10,198 nt of DNA. Source: Candidatus Calescibacterium sp. GTDB taxonomy: Bacteria > Calescibacteriota > Calescibacteriia > Calescibacteriales > Calescibacteriaceae. The notes under the pieces were generated by a model. The model saw only the letters and a program-made list of their open reading frames with translations, ran no database searches and had not been told where the DNA came from. Positions 343 through 9,920 of this stretch are shown here, in pieces (position 1 is the stretch's first letter; each line of letters starts with the position of its first letter). The stretch covers positions 1 through 10,198 of the forward strand of contig JANXBU010000027.1 of assembly GCA_025060505.1 (NCBI GenBank), written 5' to 3'. The position numbers and the translations under genes are program-made.

Positions 343-708
343 ATGTCTTCGCTTGTTAAGTTCCTCAGATTTTTATTTATATTATCAATCTCTATTGAGC
401 TTCTGATGCCAATCTGTTCGGTTTCACTAGCCTCGGAAATATCAATGGAGTTTTTTGGTGCTTCAAACCACTCCTGTTGCGGTAAAAAGAAGGATAAGGA
501 TGCCCAAATTGAGCAAGATCAACCAAGCTCCCAAAATACGAAATTCGGTTGCGATTGCGGGATGTACTGTTGTAGTAATTACAGGGTAAAAAGTGAAAAC
601 AAACTTGAATTTCATTTGGAGAAGATCGGTGATATTTTTTACAGAAATGACTACAAGAGTAGATTGTTTGAAGTAAAGATTCTTAAACCTCCTTCCCTTA
701 TCTCATAA
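343..708 (+). CDS. Small secreted cysteine-rich protein, first gene of the copper/silver efflux operon
   Basis: This 121-residue protein has a clear N-terminal signal peptide: a Lys/Arg start, a hydrophobic core at about residues 7-24, and a likely signal peptidase I site after SVSLA (residue 30). The mature part carries six cysteines in two clusters: HSCC (C45, C46) followed by KKKDKD, and CDCGMYCC (C70, C72, C76, C77). It ends with a KPPSL motif. No Pfam family is recognised with certainty. The layout (signal peptide, CC clusters, CGM, then PP near the end) resembles small proteins often found beside heavy-metal RND genes, such as the HYC_CC_PP group known from Bacteroidetes, but this is a resemblance and not a proven homology. 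Paired Cys plus Met in an oxidising compartment suits binding of Cu(I)/Ag(I), which is inference. It lies 69 bases upstream of the TolC gene on the same strand. ATG 343 has only a weak GAG-type ribosome site, unlike the strong sites of the genes that follow. An alternative is a secreted protein stabilised by disulfides with no metal role. Confidence 0.7.
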   Translation: MSSLVKFLRFLFILSISIELLMPICSVSLASEISMEFFGASNHSCCGKKKDKDAQIEQDQPSSQNTKFGCDCGMYCCSNYRVKSENKLEFHLEKIGDIFYRNDYKSRLFEVKILKPPSLIS

Positions 709-761
709 CTTACTTCGTTCTTACACTGGATCATACATAAAAAGCAAAAAACAACAAACAG

Positions 762-769
762 AAAGGAGG
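762..769 (+). promoter_or_regulatory. Strong Shine-Dalgarno site fixing the start of the TolC-family gene
   Basis: AAAGGAGG, followed by T, lies 8 bases before ATG 778. No ATG, GTG or TTG exists in frame between the preceding stop (706-708) and 778, so this site fixes the start even though the resulting signal peptide is short and has no Lys/Arg. Near-identical AAGGAGGT sites precede the adaptor (about 1947-1955), the RND pump (about 3596-3604) and the SCP2 gene on the minus strand (about 7262-7270). Confidence 0.8.
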
Positions 770-777
770 TATATTTT

Positions 778-1968
778 ATGGCTTTATTATTTACAATTTT
801 ATTTTTGTCCTTCAATCTGAAGGATTTAATTGAGGAGGCAAAATCAAACAATTTGGAGATAATTTCGGCAAGGTATGAGGCATTATCAAAAAATTATGTA
901 AAGAGTTATATCACAGCTTTACCTGATCCATCTTTTGGATTGGGTTACAGAAAAACTCCGGAGTTTTTTATCAGGCAAAAGATTCCCTTTCCCTCAAAGC
1001 TCAAAAATCTTGGTGAGTCCGCGGCTTTGCAGATAGATTATTACAGATACTCCCTTGCAATAAAGGAGGCTGAAATAATATCTGATCTTAAATCTAAATA
1101 CTATGAACTCTGGTATTTATATCAGGAACGAAGAGCACTTGATGAACTTCTGAATATACTTTCTGACCTTGAAAGATCAGCGGATGCTCTTTACAGATTA
1201 GATAGAACTGATTTGCAGTCTGTGATACGAACAAGGGTTGAAAGAGAACTCACGTTAGCAAAGTTAAGCTTTATAAACTCGGAAATATCAAGAGTAATAG
1301 CTCACCTTTCTTATATTACGGCAAAAGAAAGGAAGGATGGCTGGGATTTGGTCGCAGATCAGAGAGTTGAACCTTATTTTATTGATCTGGATGACATTCG
1401 TGAAATAGCTATCAGAAATTCTCCATTCATTGGTATTCAGCTCATATCCTCCAAAATATCTGAGTTTGAACTTGAATATGAGAAATTATCTTATGTTCCA
1501 GACCTGGTTTTGTCTTTTGATACTATGATGGGAGCACCTGCTTTTTTTGTTGAGATAGAGATTCCTATATGGTTCTGGAAGAACCAGAAAAACAGAGTGC
1601 TTGAAAAACAGAAAAATCTTCTCTCATCGCAAAGCTTGTATGAATCTGAAAAGTTGAGGATTCTCTCAACCGTAGAATCGCTCAAAAATACTATAAACTC
1701 TTTTTATGAGTTCTCTGTGGCATATGCAAAGGCTATTGAGCAGACCTACGCTGCATTTGAGTCCGCTAAAGCATCTTGGATGCTGGGTAAATCACCTTTC
1801 TCAGATGTTATAGATCTTCTTGTTCTTCTATATAACTACAAGATAGATCTTGCTAATAAAATATACCTGAACAGAGCATATACAGCGGAGCTTGAAAAGT
1901 ATCTGGGTCTTGAAATAGAAAAGTTAGTCTCGCCGGGTCAGATGAAAAAGGAGGTACAAAAGCCATGA
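778..1968 (+). CDS. TolC/CusC-type outer-membrane efflux channel of the copper/silver system
   Basis: This 396-residue protein is predicted to form the trimeric outer-membrane channel and periplasmic tunnel through which the RND pump releases metal. Family marks are the N-terminal helix LIEEAKSNNLEI, the ALPDPSFGLGYR segment followed by an Arg-Gln-Lys-Ile-Pro-Phe-Pro element (about 48-75), and long heptad-like helices (about 78-135 and 290-340). The second half repeats the first, with VPDLVLSFD near residue 240. Near the C-terminus is LGKSPFSDVIDLLVLLYNYKI, the usual TolC equatorial/helix pattern. The length is at the short end for CusC-like proteins, which are often 420-460 residues. The N-terminus MALLFTILFLSFN is a brief hydrophobic stretch with no basic residue and no clear cleavage site or lipobox. 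It is followed by the adaptor gene with a 4-base ATGA overlap (1965-1968), showing translational coupling. The family call is firm; the copper role comes from the neighbours. Confidence 0.9.
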   Translation: MALLFTILFLSFNLKDLIEEAKSNNLEIISARYEALSKNYVKSYITALPDPSFGLGYRKTPEFFIRQKIPFPSKLKNLGESAALQIDYYRYSLAIKEAEIISDLKSKYYELWYLYQERRALDELLNILSDLERSADALYRLDRTDLQSVIRTRVERELTLAKLSFINSEISRVIAHLSYITAKERKDGWDLVADQRVEPYFIDLDDIREIAIRNSPFIGIQLISSKISEFELEYEKLSYVPDLVLSFDTMMGAPAFFVEIEIPIWFWKNQKNRVLEKQKNLLSSQSLYESEKLRILSTVESLKNTINSFYEFSVAYAKAIEQTYAAFESAKASWMLGKSPFSDVIDLLVLLYNYKIDLANKIYLNRAYTAELEKYLGLEIEKLVSPGQMKKEVQKP

Positions 1969-3596
1969 GAAAGTATCTTTCAGGGAAATGTCTTTTATTT
2001 TTGATTACATTTTCGGTTTTGATTTTGTTAGCGTCACATTCTGTAATTCAGAGTTGCTCAGAAAAAGCTTTATCAGAAGCTCAGTTTTCTCAGGTTATGA
2101 ACAAAGAAACCAAAAAGAATGAGTATTTCTGCCCAATGCATCCGGAGGTTATATCTCCAAAGCCTGTAAGGTGTCCAAAGTGTGGAATGAACCTTACAAA
2201 AGAGAAGAAGCAGTATATCTGCCCGATGCATCCGGATATAGTATCAGAAGAATTCGGGAGATGTCCAAAATGTGGTATGAACCTTGTTCCAAAAGAATCA
2301 AGCAAAAAGCACCATAGCCACACCGGGCATCAGGAGGACGCAGAGCATCAGGATACTGCTGAGATTGGGGGAGCTGAGCATAAGCCTGAGCAAAACATCA
2401 AAGAATTCAAAGATATTCAGACTAAACAGACTTCGCAATCTCAAAAATACATATGTCCAATGCATCCAAGTTATGTTTCTGATAAACCTGGCAGTTGTCC
2501 AATATGTGGAATGAACTTGGTTCCTTTTGGTCAGAATACAGAAGAATCTGATCAAGCAGGTATTCAGGTATCAACTTACAAGGAGCAACTGATTGGAGTA
2601 AGCTATGGGAAAGTTTCATTTCATGATTTCAGAAAAGAGATAAGAGCTGTTTTGGAAATAAGATACGATGAGACAAAAGTTTATTCTATAACTCCGAAGT
2701 TCTCTGGTTGGATTGAAAAGCTCTGGGCAAACTTTGAAGGAAAATTCATAAAAAAGGGAGATCCACTTTTTGATATATACTCACTGGATATCGAATCTGC
2801 CTTGGAGGAACTCAGAATACTTCAGAGAAATGATTTTTTGAGCTCTGCAAAGGAGAAAATGTTGCTGTTTGGATTTTCTGAAGCTGAGATACAAAAACTT
2901 ATCAGCGAACCGAGAAAAAAAAGAATCGTAACATTTAGATCACCATATCAAGGATTCGTAATAAGCAAAGATGTTTTTGAGGGACAGTTTATTGAGCGTG
3001 GAAAGGAAATTTTTCGTATCGCAGATCTATCGCGAGTGTGGGGTGTTGCTAAAATACCACAATCTGATCTTCCATACATCAAAAAGGGGCTAACTGTTTT
3101 TCTGAACATCAGAGGATATGGTCAGCTTTCTGGCAAAGTATCGTATATATATCCTTACTCTCGGGAAAGAAGTTTTGTATTCGATGTTCGTGTTGAACTT
3201 ATAAACAGAGACTTCAAGTTGAAACCGGGACTTTATGGTATATCGCAAATTTATGTACCAATTGGCAAAAAACTCGCAGTTCCAAAAGACTCTGTTATAT
3301 TCTCTGGCGAGAAAAACTATGTTCTTGTGAGACAAAACGGAAGAATTTTGCCCAAAGAGATAAAAATCGGTGTTCAGGATGAAAAATATGTTGAGGTAAT
3401 TGGTGGAGTTGCCGAGGGCGAAGAAGTTGTTCTTTCCGCAAATTTCCTTATAGATTCAGAAAGCAGACTTCAGGAAGCTTTCAGATCTTTTGGATCTGAA
3501 ATACCAGATGAGAAAAAAGATGCGCAAATTAAAGATAAATCTCATAGGCAAATCCAAACAAAGGAATCACCAAAAACTCACATACATCAGCACTGA
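1965..3596 (+). CDS. cusB: CusB-type periplasmic adaptor (membrane fusion protein) with three N-terminal heavy-metal-binding domains
   Basis: This 543-residue protein should link the RND pump to the TolC channel and hand metal to the pump. The N-terminus is a membrane-targeting segment (residues 9-26) with a possible lipobox ending at Cys31 (VIQSC). Three HMBD modules follow, each of the form [FI]CPMHP...CPxCGMNL: residues 54-77 (C56, C70, C73), 84-107 (C86, C100, C103) and 162-185 (C164, C178, C181). Between the second and third lies a His/Glu/Gln-rich linker (about 112-150, including HHSHTGH). The adaptor core starts near 207: a barrel-sandwich half at 235-270, an unusually short helical hairpin (about 274-312), the second half ending with FEGQFIERGKEIFRIADLSRVW (337-359), a beta-barrel, and a membrane-proximal domain (about 436-500). 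The tail is His-rich (THIHQH). E. coli CusB has no HMBD and relies on a separate CusF. The start overlaps the TolC stop and has an AAAAGGAGGT site 9 bases upstream. Copper/silver specificity fits the CusA-type partner. Confidence 0.93.
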   Translation: MRKYLSGKCLLFLITFSVLILLASHSVIQSCSEKALSEAQFSQVMNKETKKNEYFCPMHPEVISPKPVRCPKCGMNLTKEKKQYICPMHPDIVSEEFGRCPKCGMNLVPKESSKKHHSHTGHQEDAEHQDTAEIGGAEHKPEQNIKEFKDIQTKQTSQSQKYICPMHPSYVSDKPGSCPICGMNLVPFGQNTEESDQAGIQVSTYKEQLIGVSYGKVSFHDFRKEIRAVLEIRYDETKVYSITPKFSGWIEKLWANFEGKFIKKGDPLFDIYSLDIESALEELRILQRNDFLSSAKEKMLLFGFSEAEIQKLISEPRKKRIVTFRSPYQGFVISKDVFEGQFIERGKEIFRIADLSRVWGVAKIPQSDLPYIKKGLTVFLNIRGYGQLSGKVSYIYPYSRERSFVFDVRVELINRDFKLKPGLYGISQIYVPIGKKLAVPKDSVIFSGEKNYVLVRQNGRILPKEIKIGVQDEKYVEVIGGVAEGEEVVLSANFLIDSESRLQEAFRSFGSEIPDEKKDAQIKDKSHRQIQTKESPKTHIHQH

Positions 3597-3612: not shown

Positions 3613-6600
3613 ATGATAGAAAAAATAATTGAGTTTTCTTTCAAAAAGAAGTTCTTTGTTATTCTTGTGTTCTTCTTTATATCGGTCTGGGGTGTTTTCA
3701 TTCTCAGAAAGGTTCCAATAGATGCTATTCCGGATCTTTCTGATCCACAAGTCATTCTCTTTGCAGAGTGGGCCGGTCAGTCTCCGCAGACTGTTGAGGA
3801 TCAGATAACATATCCTGTTGTATCAAAGCTATTTTCCGCACCAAAAGTTAAAAGTGTCAGAGGTTTTTCATACTTCGGTTTATCCATAGTATACGTAATC
3901 TTTGAAGATGGAGTTGATCTTTACTGGGCAAGGTCTCGTGTTGTTGAGTATATTCAGGGTATCGAGCTTCCGGAGGGGGTTGAATTCAGGCTTGGTCCAG
4001 ATGCAACGGGAGTTGGTTGGGGACTTCAATATGCCCTTGTTGATGAGGATGAAAAATGCGATTTGTCTTGTCTCCGAACTCTGAACGACTGGTACGTTAA
4101 GTTTGTACTGAGGTCTGTTCAGGGAGTTGCAGATGTTGAATCTGTTGGAGGTTTTGAAAAGCAGTATCAGATAATCGTTGATCCAATAAGAATTGCAGCA
4201 TATGGTTTGTCTTTATCTCAAATAATTGACTCCGTGAGAAATTCGAATTCGGAGGTTGGTGGGAGAATACTTGAGCTGTCTCAGAGAGAATATTTCATAC
4301 GCGGTAGAGGATATATCAAAGACATCAAGGAAATAGAAAACACAACAGTTGGTTTTTACGACGGAGTTCCGGTTTACCTGAAAGACGTAGCTGATGTTGT
4401 ATTAGGTCCAGAGATCAGGCGGGGAGTTGCTGATCTTGATGGAAGAGGAGATGTGGTCGGTGGGATAGTTATTGTAAGGTTTGGAGAAAACATGTATGAT
4501 GTGATAAAGCGTGTAAAAGATAAAATAGAGGAAATTAGAAACACAATTCCGGCAAAAATTTTAATTGTGTATGATAGATCTGATCTCATACGAAGGGTTA
4601 TAGATCATCTGAAAGATAAGCTCACGGAGGAGATCATTTTTGTTCTGATCGTTTGCGGCATTTTTCTTTTACATATTGGGGGAGCTCTTGTGATAACCAT
4701 ATGTTTGCCAGTTGCTGTTCTTATGAGCTTTATAGCTATGTATCATCTTGGTATAGTTTCAAACATCATGTCTTTGTCTGGCATTGCCATAGCTATTGGA
4801 ACTATGGTAGATGCCATGATAATTCTGGTTGAAAATGTTAGCAAGAGGCTTGAGAAGGAACCTTCAAAATCTGATTTGATTCTTCAAGCGATGAAGGAGG
4901 TTGGAGTTCCTATTTTCTTCACTCTGCTTGTCATAACAGTTTCGTTTCTACCGGTGTTTGCATTAGAAGCTCAGGAGGGAAGACTTTTCAAACCGCTCGC
5001 ATATACCAAAACTTTGGCTATGCTTTTTTCAGCTGTTGTTGCTATAACTCTGGCTCCTGCGCTTGTAGCTATTTTCATAAGAGGAAAGGTTCTACCGGAA
5101 GAAAAGAATCCGGTTTCCTTTTTCCTGATGCGTATTTATGAGCCAGCTTTGAGGTTCTGTCTGAGATATAAATTTGCACCGATTTTGATTTCTGTTTTAC
5201 TTTTGATTTTTGGGATTTTGTCTTTCAGAAAGCTTGGAAAGGAGTTCATGCCGTCTTTCAATGAAGGAACCTTGCTTTATATGCCAACCACACTACCTGG
5301 AATTTCCATCACAGAGATTTCAAGGATTATGCAGATACAGGATAGGATAATAAAATCTTTTCCGGAGGTTCTGACAGTCTTTGGAAAGGCCGGAAGAGCT
5401 GAGACTCCAACAGATCCAGCTCCGCTTTCTATGATAGAAACCACGATAATTTTGAAACCAGAAGATCAGTGGCCATGCCGAGTGACCAACACAGGTATAA
5501 AGAGTCTTTTTGAAAAATGCAGAAGGTGGAATATTCAGGAACTCATCTCCCATCTTGACTACTCATTGCGTATGCCGGGGGTTGTAAATTCTTGGGGGTT
5601 CCCAATAAGAATAAGAATAGATATGCTAACGACCGGGATCAGAACTCCGCTTGGAATAAAAGTTTTTGGAAGCGATATATACGAAGTAGAAAGATTAGCA
5701 AAAAACATAGAGAATGTTCTGAAGAGAGTTTATGGAACAAGGTCTGTTTACGCTGAAACAGTTGAGGGCGGATACTACCTTGATATAGAAATAAAGAGAG
5801 ATAAGCTTGGTTTGTATGGACTTTCTATTCAAGATGTTCAAAACATTGTGAGCTTTGCTCTGGGAGGATACACCATAACGAAAACAGTAGAAGCTAGAGA
5901 GAGATACAGCGTTCAGATAAGGTATGCAAGAGATTTCAGAGATGATCCTGAGGATATTTCAAGAATTCTTATTCCAGCCGGAGACTCTTTCGTTATGCTT
6001 TCTGATGTTGCTGAGATAAGATTCACCGAAGGCCCTTCTTTTCTGAAAAACGAAAACGGTTTTCTCACACTGTGGATATACATAGATGTTGATGATAGCT
6101 TGGTTTCTTTGGGAGAGTATGTTAGCACCGCGGATAAGCTCATAAAGAGTAATGTACAAATTCCTTCTGGATACTCATACCAGTGGTCTGGTCAGTATGA
6201 GTACATCAAGAGAGTAGATGAAAAACTGAAATTCCTGATACCAATGACCTTATTTTTGGTTTTTGTTTTAATTTACATAAACACGGGTTCATTTTTCAAG
6301 ACCTTTTTTGTTTTTTTAGCTGTTCCTTTTTCTGTTGCAGGCTCATTCATTTTCCTTTATCTACTTGATTATAACCTGAGTATAGCTGTTTGGGTTGGGA
6401 TAATAGCACTTGCTGGACTTGATGCTGAGACGGGTGTCATTATGCTTTTATATCTTGATCTTGCTTATGAGAAATGGAAGAAAGAGGGCAGGTTGAATTC
6501 TTCTGCGGATTTGATAGATTCAATAGATTTTGGAGCGGTCAAGCGTCTTAGACCTAAGGCAATGACGGCTCTGACGATAATTTTCGGATTGATTCCGATC

Positions 6601-6741
6601 ATGTGGTCGGAGGGAACCGGAGCAGAGATAATGAAGAGGGTCTCTGCTCCACTTTTAGGTGGTATTATTACAAGTTTTTTGGTTGAGCTTTTCCTTTATC
6701 CGGTTATATTTTATCTTTGGAAGAAGAAAGGGTTAAAATAG
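3613..6741 (+). CDS. cusA: CusA-type heavy-metal efflux RND pump, Cu(I)/Ag(I) specific
   Basis: This 1042-residue inner-membrane proton/metal antiporter is full length for the HME-RND family. TM1 is at about 12-32, followed by the family sequence VPIDAIPDLSDPQV and the porter domain. TM4 has GTMVDAMIILVEN with D400. The second half has ALAGLDAETGV with E939 and RPKAMT with K982. These match the proton-relay Asp405, Glu939 and Lys984 known from E. coli CusA. The three copper-site methionines are also present: M557 (LLYMPTTLPG), M607 (APLSMIETT) and M671 (RIDMLTTG), equivalent to Met573/623/672. Against E. coli CusA there is an insert of about 15 residues between M607 and M671, holding C622 and C636; a second pair, C149 and C153 (KCDLSC), lies in the N-terminal porter region. 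ATG 3613 has AAAGGAGGT 8 bases before it and starts 16 bases after the adaptor stop. Substrate choice is inferred from conserved residues and operon context, and is stronger than a general heavy-metal call. Confidence 0.96.
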   Translation: MIEKIIEFSFKKKFFVILVFFFISVWGVFILRKVPIDAIPDLSDPQVILFAEWAGQSPQTVEDQITYPVVSKLFSAPKVKSVRGFSYFGLSIVYVIFEDGVDLYWARSRVVEYIQGIELPEGVEFRLGPDATGVGWGLQYALVDEDEKCDLSCLRTLNDWYVKFVLRSVQGVADVESVGGFEKQYQIIVDPIRIAAYGLSLSQIIDSVRNSNSEVGGRILELSQREYFIRGRGYIKDIKEIENTTVGFYDGVPVYLKDVADVVLGPEIRRGVADLDGRGDVVGGIVIVRFGENMYDVIKRVKDKIEEIRNTIPAKILIVYDRSDLIRRVIDHLKDKLTEEIIFVLIVCGIFLLHIGGALVITICLPVAVLMSFIAMYHLGIVSNIMSLSGIAIAIGTMVDAMIILVENVSKRLEKEPSKSDLILQAMKEVGVPIFFTLLVITVSFLPVFALEAQEGRLFKPLAYTKTLAMLFSAVVAITLAPALVAIFIRGKVLPEEKNPVSFFLMRIYEPALRFCLRYKFAPILISVLLLIFGILSFRKLGKEFMPSFNEGTLLYMPTTLPGISITEISRIMQIQDRIIKSFPEVLTVFGKAGRAETPTDPAPLSMIETTIILKPEDQWPCRVTNTGIKSLFEKCRRWNIQELISHLDYSLRMPGVVNSWGFPIRIRIDMLTTGIRTPLGIKVFGSDIYEVERLAKNIENVLKRVYGTRSVYAETVEGGYYLDIEIKRDKLGLYGLSIQDVQNIVSFALGGYTITKTVEARERYSVQIRYARDFRDDPEDISRILIPAGDSFVMLSDVAEIRFTEGPSFLKNENGFLTLWIYIDVDDSLVSLGEYVSTADKLIKSNVQIPSGYSYQWSGQYEYIKRVDEKLKFLIPMTLFLVFVLIYINTGSFFKTFFVFLAVPFSVAGSFIFLYLLDYNLSIAVWVGIIALAGLDAETGVIMLLYLDLAYEKWKKEGRLNSSADLIDSIDFGAVKRLRPKAMTALTIIFGLIPIMWSEGTGAEIMKRVSAPLLGGIITSFLVELFLYPVIFYLWKKKGLK

Positions 6742-6798: not shown

Positions 6799-6827
6799 GG
6801 AGAGGGTTTCCCCTCTCCGTGTTTTTT
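6799..6827 (+). terminator. Rho-independent terminator of the copper operon, between convergent genes
   Basis: GGAGAGGG (6799-6806) pairs perfectly over 8 bp with CCCTCTCC (6811-6818) around a TTTC loop, and is followed by GTGTTTTTT (6819-6827). It starts 57 bases after the pump stop. The T-run includes the first two bases of the reverse-complement stop codon of the minus-strand SCP2 gene (6826-6828). Read from the minus strand the same stem is followed by a weaker CTCTTT tract, so it may work in both directions. Confidence 0.88.
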
Positions 6828-7705: not shown

Positions 7706-8737
7706 ATGAAGCTAATTAAGAATTATTTTATTTTTATTTTTTGGCTTATTTCTGTGAGACTTTTTTTTCCTTTTACTTTGTCAACATTCTTGTTTGTTCC
7801 TCTTTCATATTCGCAGGATATTTGGAAATGCGGAACTATTGCTCCTCCGGGCAGTGAATATGAGAAGGTTATAAATCGTATCATAAAGGAAATAAACAAG
7901 GTTATCAATGTAGAAGTTAAGGTGTATTATGCTAATTCCTTCGGCGATGAAATAGACATAGCAAAAGAACTAAAAGCTGGTAAGCTTGATTGCGGAATAC
8001 TTACAGGTAATGGTCTTGGGTATATTTCTCCATACTCAAGGGTTCTTGAATTACCTTTTCTTATAAAGACGAGAAGTGAGTGGGAGCGGGTTAGACCTCG
8101 TCTAACAGTAATACTAACGAATGCTATGCGGAGTGAGGGATGGGAACTTTTTGGGCTGTTCGGTATTGGTTTTGTATATTTTCTATCTAAGTATCCAATT
8201 GAAAACTTGCAGGATTTTTCAGGTAGAACTTTTTGGGTTTGGAAAACAAATATAATTCAGATTGAATCCTACAATGTTCTAAAAATTTTCGGAGCAAAGC
8301 CTCTTGAAATAAGTGTTCTTGATATTCCAGCATTTTACGACTCATTAGATATAATGTGGGGACCAAAGTATGCTTTTGTTGCTTATGGTTGGTATAGATA
8401 CTTCAAATATATTATGTATCCTCCTACTTTGTATTTCCCCGGAGGTATAGTTGTTTCATCGGAGAAGATAAGAAAATACTCACCTGAGCAATTAGCGCGC
8501 CTGAGGGATATGTTTGAAAGAGAAATAAGAAATATCACAAACGAACTGGAGCAACTAAATGAAAAATCCCTTGAAATTTTGCTGAGATCAGGAATAAAAA
8601 AAGTAGAAATAAAAGATGCTGATAAACTCGAACACGCTTTCAAGTCTTCTATGTATGAATCATTCAAGAAGTATATTCCATCTTGGTTAATTGTTTCTGT
8701 TATGGAGGAAGTTCTTAAAGTCAGAGACACAAAATAA
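7706..8737 (+). CDS. DctP-like TRAP transporter solute-binding protein, orphan
   Basis: This 343-residue protein has a long hydrophobic signal segment (residues 7-36; possible cleavage after LSYS) and should work in the periplasm. The mature chain follows the DctP receptor pattern: WKCGTIAPPGSEYEKVI (40-56), YYANSFGDEIDIAKELKAGKLDCGIL (74-99), ELPFLIKTRSEWERV (115-129), a hinge region with FSGRTFWVWKTN (171-182), KIFGAKPLEISVLDIPAFYDSLDI (193-216), and a helical C-terminus (YSPEQLARLRDMF, 258-270). In typical DctP proteins the sequence after the conserved Gly is KIRV, whose Arg binds the substrate carboxylate. Here the aligned residue appears to be W176, so the ligand may not be a simple organic acid anion. 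A Trp-bearing DctP subgroup is known to me from other Gram-negatives. No DctQ or DctM membrane genes lie in the window; a tRNA and phage-like DNA follow. The family is well supported and the ligand unknown. Confidence 0.82.
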   Translation: MKLIKNYFIFIFWLISVRLFFPFTLSTFLFVPLSYSQDIWKCGTIAPPGSEYEKVINRIIKEINKVINVEVKVYYANSFGDEIDIAKELKAGKLDCGILTGNGLGYISPYSRVLELPFLIKTRSEWERVRPRLTVILTNAMRSEGWELFGLFGIGFVYFLSKYPIENLQDFSGRTFWVWKTNIIQIESYNVLKIFGAKPLEISVLDIPAFYDSLDIMWGPKYAFVAYGWYRYFKYIMYPPTLYFPGGIVVSSEKIRKYSPEQLARLRDMFEREIRNITNELEQLNEKSLEILLRSGIKKVEIKDADKLEHAFKSSMYESFKKYIPSWLIVSVMEEVLKVRDTK

Positions 8738-9263: not shown

Positions 9264-9920
9264 ATGATGTATAATGAAATAGACGAATCAAAGGTTTATT
9301 CCGAAACACCGCAAACTTTAATTTCACAAATAGAAGGCAAAATCGCTAACGACAAAGAGGTTCCTGATGAATTCCGCAAAATTGGACACAAAAGAAGAAG
9401 TCTGGCTACTGTTATAGCAAACACTTATCATGTTTGCAAGAGGGTAGCTGAGCAAAGAGGAATTGATTTGGACAGCTACCTTGCAGAGCAAGCTAACCTA
9501 GGACCGCAAGCTCCTATTACTGCTTCTGATGTAGGACCATTCTTGAAGTTTGTGTTTCCAACTGTAAAAAGGCTCTTTCCCAAAGCTCTGGCACATGAGC
9601 TTGTTTCTGTTCAGCCTATGACAGCTCCGCTTGGTGTAGTCTTCTTCATGAGAAGAACCTACAATACCACAAAAGGAGCTACTCCTGCTGGAACAGAGAT
9701 GATTGTTAATCTTGATATCGATTACACTTCTCCGGCTGTTGCAGAGCATGTTACAATCACAGGCAACACTGGTTCAATGACAGCAAACTGGACTCCGATT
9801 GTAAGGAGAACATCGAAGATCTATGTTGATAACCAGCTTGTTGCACAGGATTATGAGAACGGCAATATTTCGGGTCATTACCAGAGCAACCCAGTTACAG
9901 GAACTGTTGCACAGGTGTAA
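9264..9920 (+). CDS. T4 gp23-type major capsid protein, N-terminal part ending at a premature stop
   Basis: These 218 residues form the first part of a phage major head protein with the HK97-type fold. The diagnostic stretch, at about residues 91-130, is SDVGPFLKFVFPTVKRLFPK and then VSVQPMTAPLGVVFFMRRTY. It lines up with T4 gp23 around IGPAVMGMVRRAIPNLIAFD and CGVQPMNSPTGQVFALRAVY. The N-terminal part is charged and helical, as expected for the arm that phage proteases often remove. Translation ends at TAA 9918-9920, immediately followed by a second TAA, but homologous sequence continues in the -1 frame. T4 gp23 has 521 residues, so this product alone is far too short. The start ATG-ATG (9264, 9267) has no Shine-Dalgarno site, but TATAAT lies exactly 6 bases before it. 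It lies about 310 bases after tRNA-Asn, suggesting a prophage or remnant. An encapsulin is less likely because the motifs are gp23-like. Confidence 0.8.
   Translation: MMYNEIDESKVYSETPQTLISQIEGKIANDKEVPDEFRKIGHKRRSLATVIANTYHVCKRVAEQRGIDLDSYLAEQANLGPQAPITASDVGPFLKFVFPTVKRLFPKALAHELVSVQPMTAPLGVVFFMRRTYNTTKGATPAGTEMIVNLDIDYTSPAVAEHVTITGNTGSMTANWTPIVRRTSKIYVDNQLVAQDYENGNISGHYQSNPVTGTVAQV

Follow-up and report, generated by a model that had tools for sequence, protein, structure and literature searches.

A CusB-type adaptor from Calescibacterota with a tandem-plus-one arm of three HMBD metal-binding modules

Introduction

Metal efflux pumps of the CusCBA type depend on a periplasmic adaptor, CusB. 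In a cus operon of Candidatus Calescibacterium sp., a hot-spring bacterium, this adaptor has an N-terminal arm with two metal-binding (HMBD) modules in close succession, a long linker and a third module next to the adaptor core. Is such an arm peculiar to this protein, and what may it do for the pump? The original prediction considered the arrangement unusual and proposed that it could serve as a built-in metal collector in place of the chaperone CusF. Throughout, "the window" is the whole stretch of DNA analysed (10,198 nucleotides). The host phylum is Calescibacterota (EM19/Calescamantes), of which five genomes, each 82-86% complete, were compared.

Results

The operon encodes a CusA-type pump with a conserved Met triad

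The operon is cusCBA, with the gene order Cys-rich ORF, channel, adaptor and pump. The features discussed below are the following:

343-708, + strand: small exported Cys-rich ORF, a leader peptide candidate, first in the cus operon of 5/5 Calescibacterota genomes
778-1968, + strand: outer-membrane channel of the CusC/TolC type, OEP (PF02321, E 2e-21)
1965-3596, + strand: CusB-type periplasmic adaptor, 543 aa (PF16576, HlyD_D23, 168.1 bits, cut-off 30)
2124-2201, + strand: HMBD module 1 (PF19335, 49.7 bits, E 1.3e-12; expected ligands M58, C73, M75)
2214-2294, + strand: HMBD module 2 (PF19335, 53.4 bits; expected ligands M88, C103, M105)
2286-2453, + strand: disordered linker rich in His, Glu and Gln, 56 residues separating the cores of modules 2 and 3
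2445-2525, + strand: HMBD module 3, core-proximal (PF19335, 57.5 bits; expected ligands M166, C181, M183)
2589-3482, + strand: adaptor core with barrel-sandwich, beta-barrel and membrane-proximal domains (alignment, PF16576, pLDDT mostly 85-95)
3540-3593, + strand: disordered, His-containing C-terminal tail (pLDDT <50 over residues 506-543)
3613-6741, + strand: CusA-type RND pump (CusA/CzcA-type; TIGR00914, 1043.7 bits, cut-off 701)

The pump can be aligned with E. coli CusA along its full length. Its residues M557, M607 and M671 fall on the periplasmic Met triad of E. coli CusA, the metal-binding residues M573, M623 and M672, whose positions were checked on the alignment. Retention of this triad argues for Cu(I)/Ag(I) as the substrate and against divalent metals. 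Elsewhere in the genome, there is a P-type ATPase with a CPC motif (a CPC-type Cu+ ATPase) and a second RND adaptor, which lacks an HMBD.

Beyond the operon, a GC-rich hairpin that resembles a terminator on the + strand lies at 6799-6818, where the cusA and SCP2-family genes converge. Toward the end of the window, an ORF at 9264-9920 (+) partly matches the T4-type major capsid protein Gp23 (39.4 bits), with a gene for a TRAP-transporter binding protein nearby (7706-8737); the Gp23-like ORF is possibly the edge of a prophage or virus.

The adaptor is a CusB relative with three HMBD modules

The closest solved relative of the adaptor is E. coli CusB (E 7e-34), and CusB in structure 3ne5 is the top structural match of its AlphaFold model (E 5e-24). 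The NCBIfam model for enterobacterial CusB, PRK09783, scores the adaptor at 136.4 bits, under its cut-off of 390, and the Pfam scan of the adaptor did not report PF16572 (HlyD_D4, the long alpha-hairpin), which is present in E. coli CusB. By its sequence matches, the adaptor is a CusB relative that stands outside the narrow enterobacterial CusB subfamily.

The three modules expected from the original prediction are all present, at coordinates and residue numbers that had been correct to within two residues. Each scores above the curated PF19335 cut-off of 23.6 bits, a Pfam scan of the protein gives HMBD 132 bits over three stretches, and the whole genome holds exactly three PF19335 matches, all within the adaptor ORF. 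The CPMHP...CGMNL cores occupy adaptor residues 56-77, 86-107 and 164-185, with a gap of only 8 residues between the first two. Any two modules are identical at 15/22 positions in protein (68%) and at 68-73% in DNA; because all three are equally dissimilar, a split into distal and proximal modules is invisible by identity alone. The linker before module 3 has the predicted composition, with 6 His, 7 Glu and 7 Gln in its 53 residues (108-160), and is predicted to be disordered (pLDDT about 30-40 over residues 113-158). The predicted His-rich tail has 4 His in the final 18 residues; His-containing tails are usual among the relatives of the adaptor. Altogether, the evidence supports the reading as a CusB-type adaptor whose metal-binding arm is of the tandem-plus-one form, with putative ligand residues that would fit Cu(I)/Ag(I). 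As for other metal binders, no YHS domain was found in the five Calescibacterota genomes. A literature search, weak in that most subscription journals were outside its scope, returned no paper naming PF19335 or multi-module adaptors.

E. coli CusB has a Met-only version of the same module

In the solved Ag+ form of the HMBD module of Legionella CopA, the ligands are M44, C59 and M61, and the two remaining Cys do not coordinate the metal (PMC11970713). These Met-Cys-Met positions are present in 3/3 modules of the adaptor in our alignment. The module of SilB has the same rubredoxin-knuckle fold with Met replacing Cys (PMC11970713). Because the HMBD module is also compatible with Zn2+ and Hg2+ (PMC11970713), the identity of the metal in the present system rests on the pump.

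The original prediction held that E. coli CusB has no HMBD. This is wrong: its N-terminus, with the sequence taken from the PDB alignment, matches PF19335 at 46.8 bits, twice the cut-off. Moreover, its residues M49, M64 and M66, which bind Cu(I) and mediate contact with CusF (PMC6715271), align with M166, C181 and M183 of module 3; in mature numbering, the copper Met residues of CusB are M21, M36 and M38 (PMC6235853). The three-way alignment of Legionella CopA, E. coli CusB and the window module was assembled in the present analysis, and PMC11970713 does not name CusB. Based on the PF19335 match, the placement of M49, M64 and M66 on the Met-Cys-Met positions and the Ag+ ligands of Legionella CopA, we conclude that E. 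coli CusB, judged by sequence, has the same metal site in a Met-only form with a single module. This corrects the notion that the HMBD is foreign to classical CusB, and it brings the Legionella CopA module, SilB and the Met site of E. coli CusB under a single ligand scheme.

Module number varies widely among adaptors

Across the five Calescibacterota genomes, the module counts per adaptor are 1, 1, 2, 2 and 3, the last belonging to the adaptor in the window. In a panel of 35 adaptors gathered among the sampled genomes by adaptor core or by HMBD, modules are absent in 1, single in 20, double in 12 and triple in 2, the window included; hence two or more modules occur in 14/35 core-selected adaptors. 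A scan with the arm as query and one genome per species, a sample biased towards arms, gave 64 adaptors among the matches listed, of which 10 have one module, 25 two, 18 three, 8 four, 2 five and 1 six. The modules were counted using an HMM built from motif-bearing modules at >=8 bits, and degenerate modules are therefore included. Accordingly, the view that more than one HMBD is unusual does not hold, and three modules are not unique, as three to six are present in 29/64 adaptors among the matches listed, from at least four phyla. The set with three or more comprises Shewanella, Ferrimonas, Thiotrichaceae, Thiodiazotropha, Bacteroidota, Acidobacteriota and Myxococcota. The original prediction had named a finding that three HMBDs are common in the family as evidence against its reading; they are common in several branches and not in others.

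In a quick tree of 95 adaptor cores, there are at least 14 switches between three or more modules and fewer. The adaptor in the window and three of the four others from Calescibacterota form a group (99% SH-aLRT) apart from the gammaproteobacterial arrays. Thus, three modules are a recurring minority state, and the adaptor, although its module count is less common, is a protein of an ordinary kind, an example of a recurring design and not a new protein type. The adaptor core of the remaining Calescibacterota genome (G002; L025, 4380-6289) is apart from the other four in the core tree, and in this genome a leader-like ORF directly precedes the adaptor, with no channel gene between; the G002 adaptor may possibly have a separate origin.

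The tandem-plus-one layout recurs

Of 28 adaptors in which at least three modules were anchored, the window included, 22 have their longest linker before the last module, and the distal modules are more alike to one another than to the last one in 23/26 untied cases; many of the 28 adaptors are from Shewanella and Ferrimonas, and these cases are therefore not independent, so that the Wilcoxon p value calls for caution. Tandem-plus-one is thus a repeated layout among multi-module adaptors. The linkers measure 8 and 56 residues in the window, a close match to the 8, 8 and 50 of Ferrimonas kyonanensis and the 8, 8, 8 and 50 of F. sediminum. In a tree of the 26-residue modules, module 3 falls among core-proximal modules and modules 1-2 join the distal module of one of their kin, with weak support. 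The Ferrimonas/Shewanella adaptors (e.g. L047, L044 and L061) share the distal tandem, the long linker and the core-proximal module with the adaptor in the window; they differ in belonging to a separate lineage of the core tree and, in these examples, in having four to six modules.

In several Shewanella loci (L050, L051, L061, L064, L079, L086 and L109), the adaptor is immediately preceded by a separate small ORF that encodes three HMBD modules. These frames are about 180-200 aa long and about 0.5 kb upstream of the adaptor; the encoded protein is possibly a free HMBD metal carrier.

A candidate copper leader peptide heads the operon

The leader-like ORFs of the five Calescibacterota genomes all have an N-terminal hydrophobic stretch, three Cys pairs and a PP 3-4 residues before the end, the last Cys and PP being 38-41 residues apart (5/5). 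The signal peptide of ORF 343-708 was judged by eye. This ORF matches no Pfam or NCBIfam family, DUF2946 and CopL models included, and its Calescibacterota counterparts likewise have no family match. Some of the leader counterparts in gammaproteobacterial multi-module operons match CopL NF033807, with L092 at 48 bits (cut-off 40) and the others lower. CruR has a CXXC, 45 residues and RAPP three residues before the end (PMC9426467), and the anatomy of CutF is comparable (PMC9973294); both are leader peptides that sense copper and, while being translated, control the gene that follows (PMC9426467, PMC9973294). By this shared anatomy, ORF 343-708 looks like a copper leader peptide of the CruR/CutF/CopL type outside the known families.

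In the stretch 682-780 (+), the KPPS codons ACCTCCTT of ORF 343-708 could pair without a mismatch, over 8 bases, with the cusC ribosome-binding site AAGGAGGT. An anti-Shine-Dalgarno pairing of the PP codons with cusC is nevertheless no more than a lead, as the fold is no better than those of shuffled sequences (z 0.40) and most kin lack the pairing.

Discussion

Based on the data reported here, we favor, with some confidence, a model in which the adaptor is an ordinary adaptor of a CusCBA-type Cu(I)/Ag(I) pump, module 3 is the metal-entry site and modules 1-2 are a tethered collecting array. In this model, module 3, beside the core, would be the conserved metal-entry module of nearly every CusB-like adaptor of the group and the counterpart of the N-terminal copper site of E. 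coli CusB, and each module would, by homology, hold one Cu(I) or Ag(I) through Met-Cys-Met. Carried by a long disordered tether, modules 1-2 would make up a distal array that captures periplasmic metal, raises the local metal concentration at the pump and hands the metal to module 3. Module 3, in turn, would pass the metal to the Met triad of CusA and help to switch the pump on.

Comparison with known systems indicates what is familiar and what is different in this adaptor. E. coli CusB (CusCFBA; PDB 3ne5, 3h94) shares with it the core fold, the operon partners, the N-terminal location of PF19335 and the Met triad of the pump. However, the single module of E. coli CusB carries Met where the ligand Cys would be, and its system includes CusF as a separate protein, whereas the adaptor in the window has three Cys-bearing modules and CusF was not found in the genome. 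The HMBD of Legionella pneumophila CopA (PDB 8OVL, 3rfu) is of the same module family with the same Met-Cys-Met positions, but is present in one copy at the cytosolic end of a P-type ATPase, while there are three on a periplasmic adaptor here. Cupriavidus metallidurans SilB is likewise an adaptor that carries a Met-type module of the HMBD fold at its N-terminus (PMC11970713); it differs in having a C-terminal CusF-like domain (PDB 5a4g), where the tail of the adaptor in the window is short, disordered and His-containing.

The suggestion that the arm replaces the chaperone CusF specifically draws on the CusF domain (CusF_Ec, PF11604) being absent from 5/5 Calescibacterota genomes and from 16/19 genomes with multi-module adaptors, the three others having it inside a frame of 516-567 aa. 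Against this, the five Calescibacterota genomes are incomplete to the extent given above, and PF11604 is absent from 58/60 sampled genomes whatever their adaptor, with only one match over the cut-off. As this background absence is nearly total, the lack of CusF is uninformative and cannot be credited to the array. Moreover, the Calescibacterota kin with a single module are likewise without PF11604. One-module adaptors thus also live without CusF, and extra modules are not needed for dispensing with it. We therefore consider a role as a dedicated substitute for CusF to be quite improbable.

Two further explanations concern the distal modules. They may mainly act as a sensor or regulator, with metal on the arm reshaping the adaptor and turning the pump on while nothing is handed on. 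The N-terminal module of SilB and the Legionella CopA module have both been proposed as sensors (PMC11970713), and binding of Cu(I) alters the shape of E. coli CusB, a change that is blocked by mutation of M64 (PMC6715271). For sensing, however, one module would suffice, and buffering or collection would better explain arrays that reach six modules; in addition, the N-terminal fragment of E. coli CusB swaps metal directly with CusF (PMC6235853). On balance, we regard a sensor that passes nothing on as unlikely. About equally doubtful is that module number simply drifts in a nearly neutral manner, with short modules that are easily duplicated and lost and three having no special function over one. 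The variation from one to three modules inside one small family and the repeated switches in the core tree would agree with drift, and recent duplication is evident from the identical tandem modules of one Ferrimonas adaptor. Yet the ligand residues are all intact in the three modules of the window even though these are only 68% identical, which argues for selection on each. A tethered collecting array that feeds module 3 remains our preferred reading.

Array length has changed widely and repeatedly, and the adaptors therefore offer a natural series of one to six modules for measuring the role of the arm. The leader-peptide candidate may merit more interest than the arm itself. More generally, and as a tentative suggestion, CusB-type adaptors may repeatedly have built a tethered relay instead of a free periplasmic chaperone, with the copy number of the modules tuning capture capacity. 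If this is true, a distal HMBD array would load metal and feed a fixed core-proximal module.
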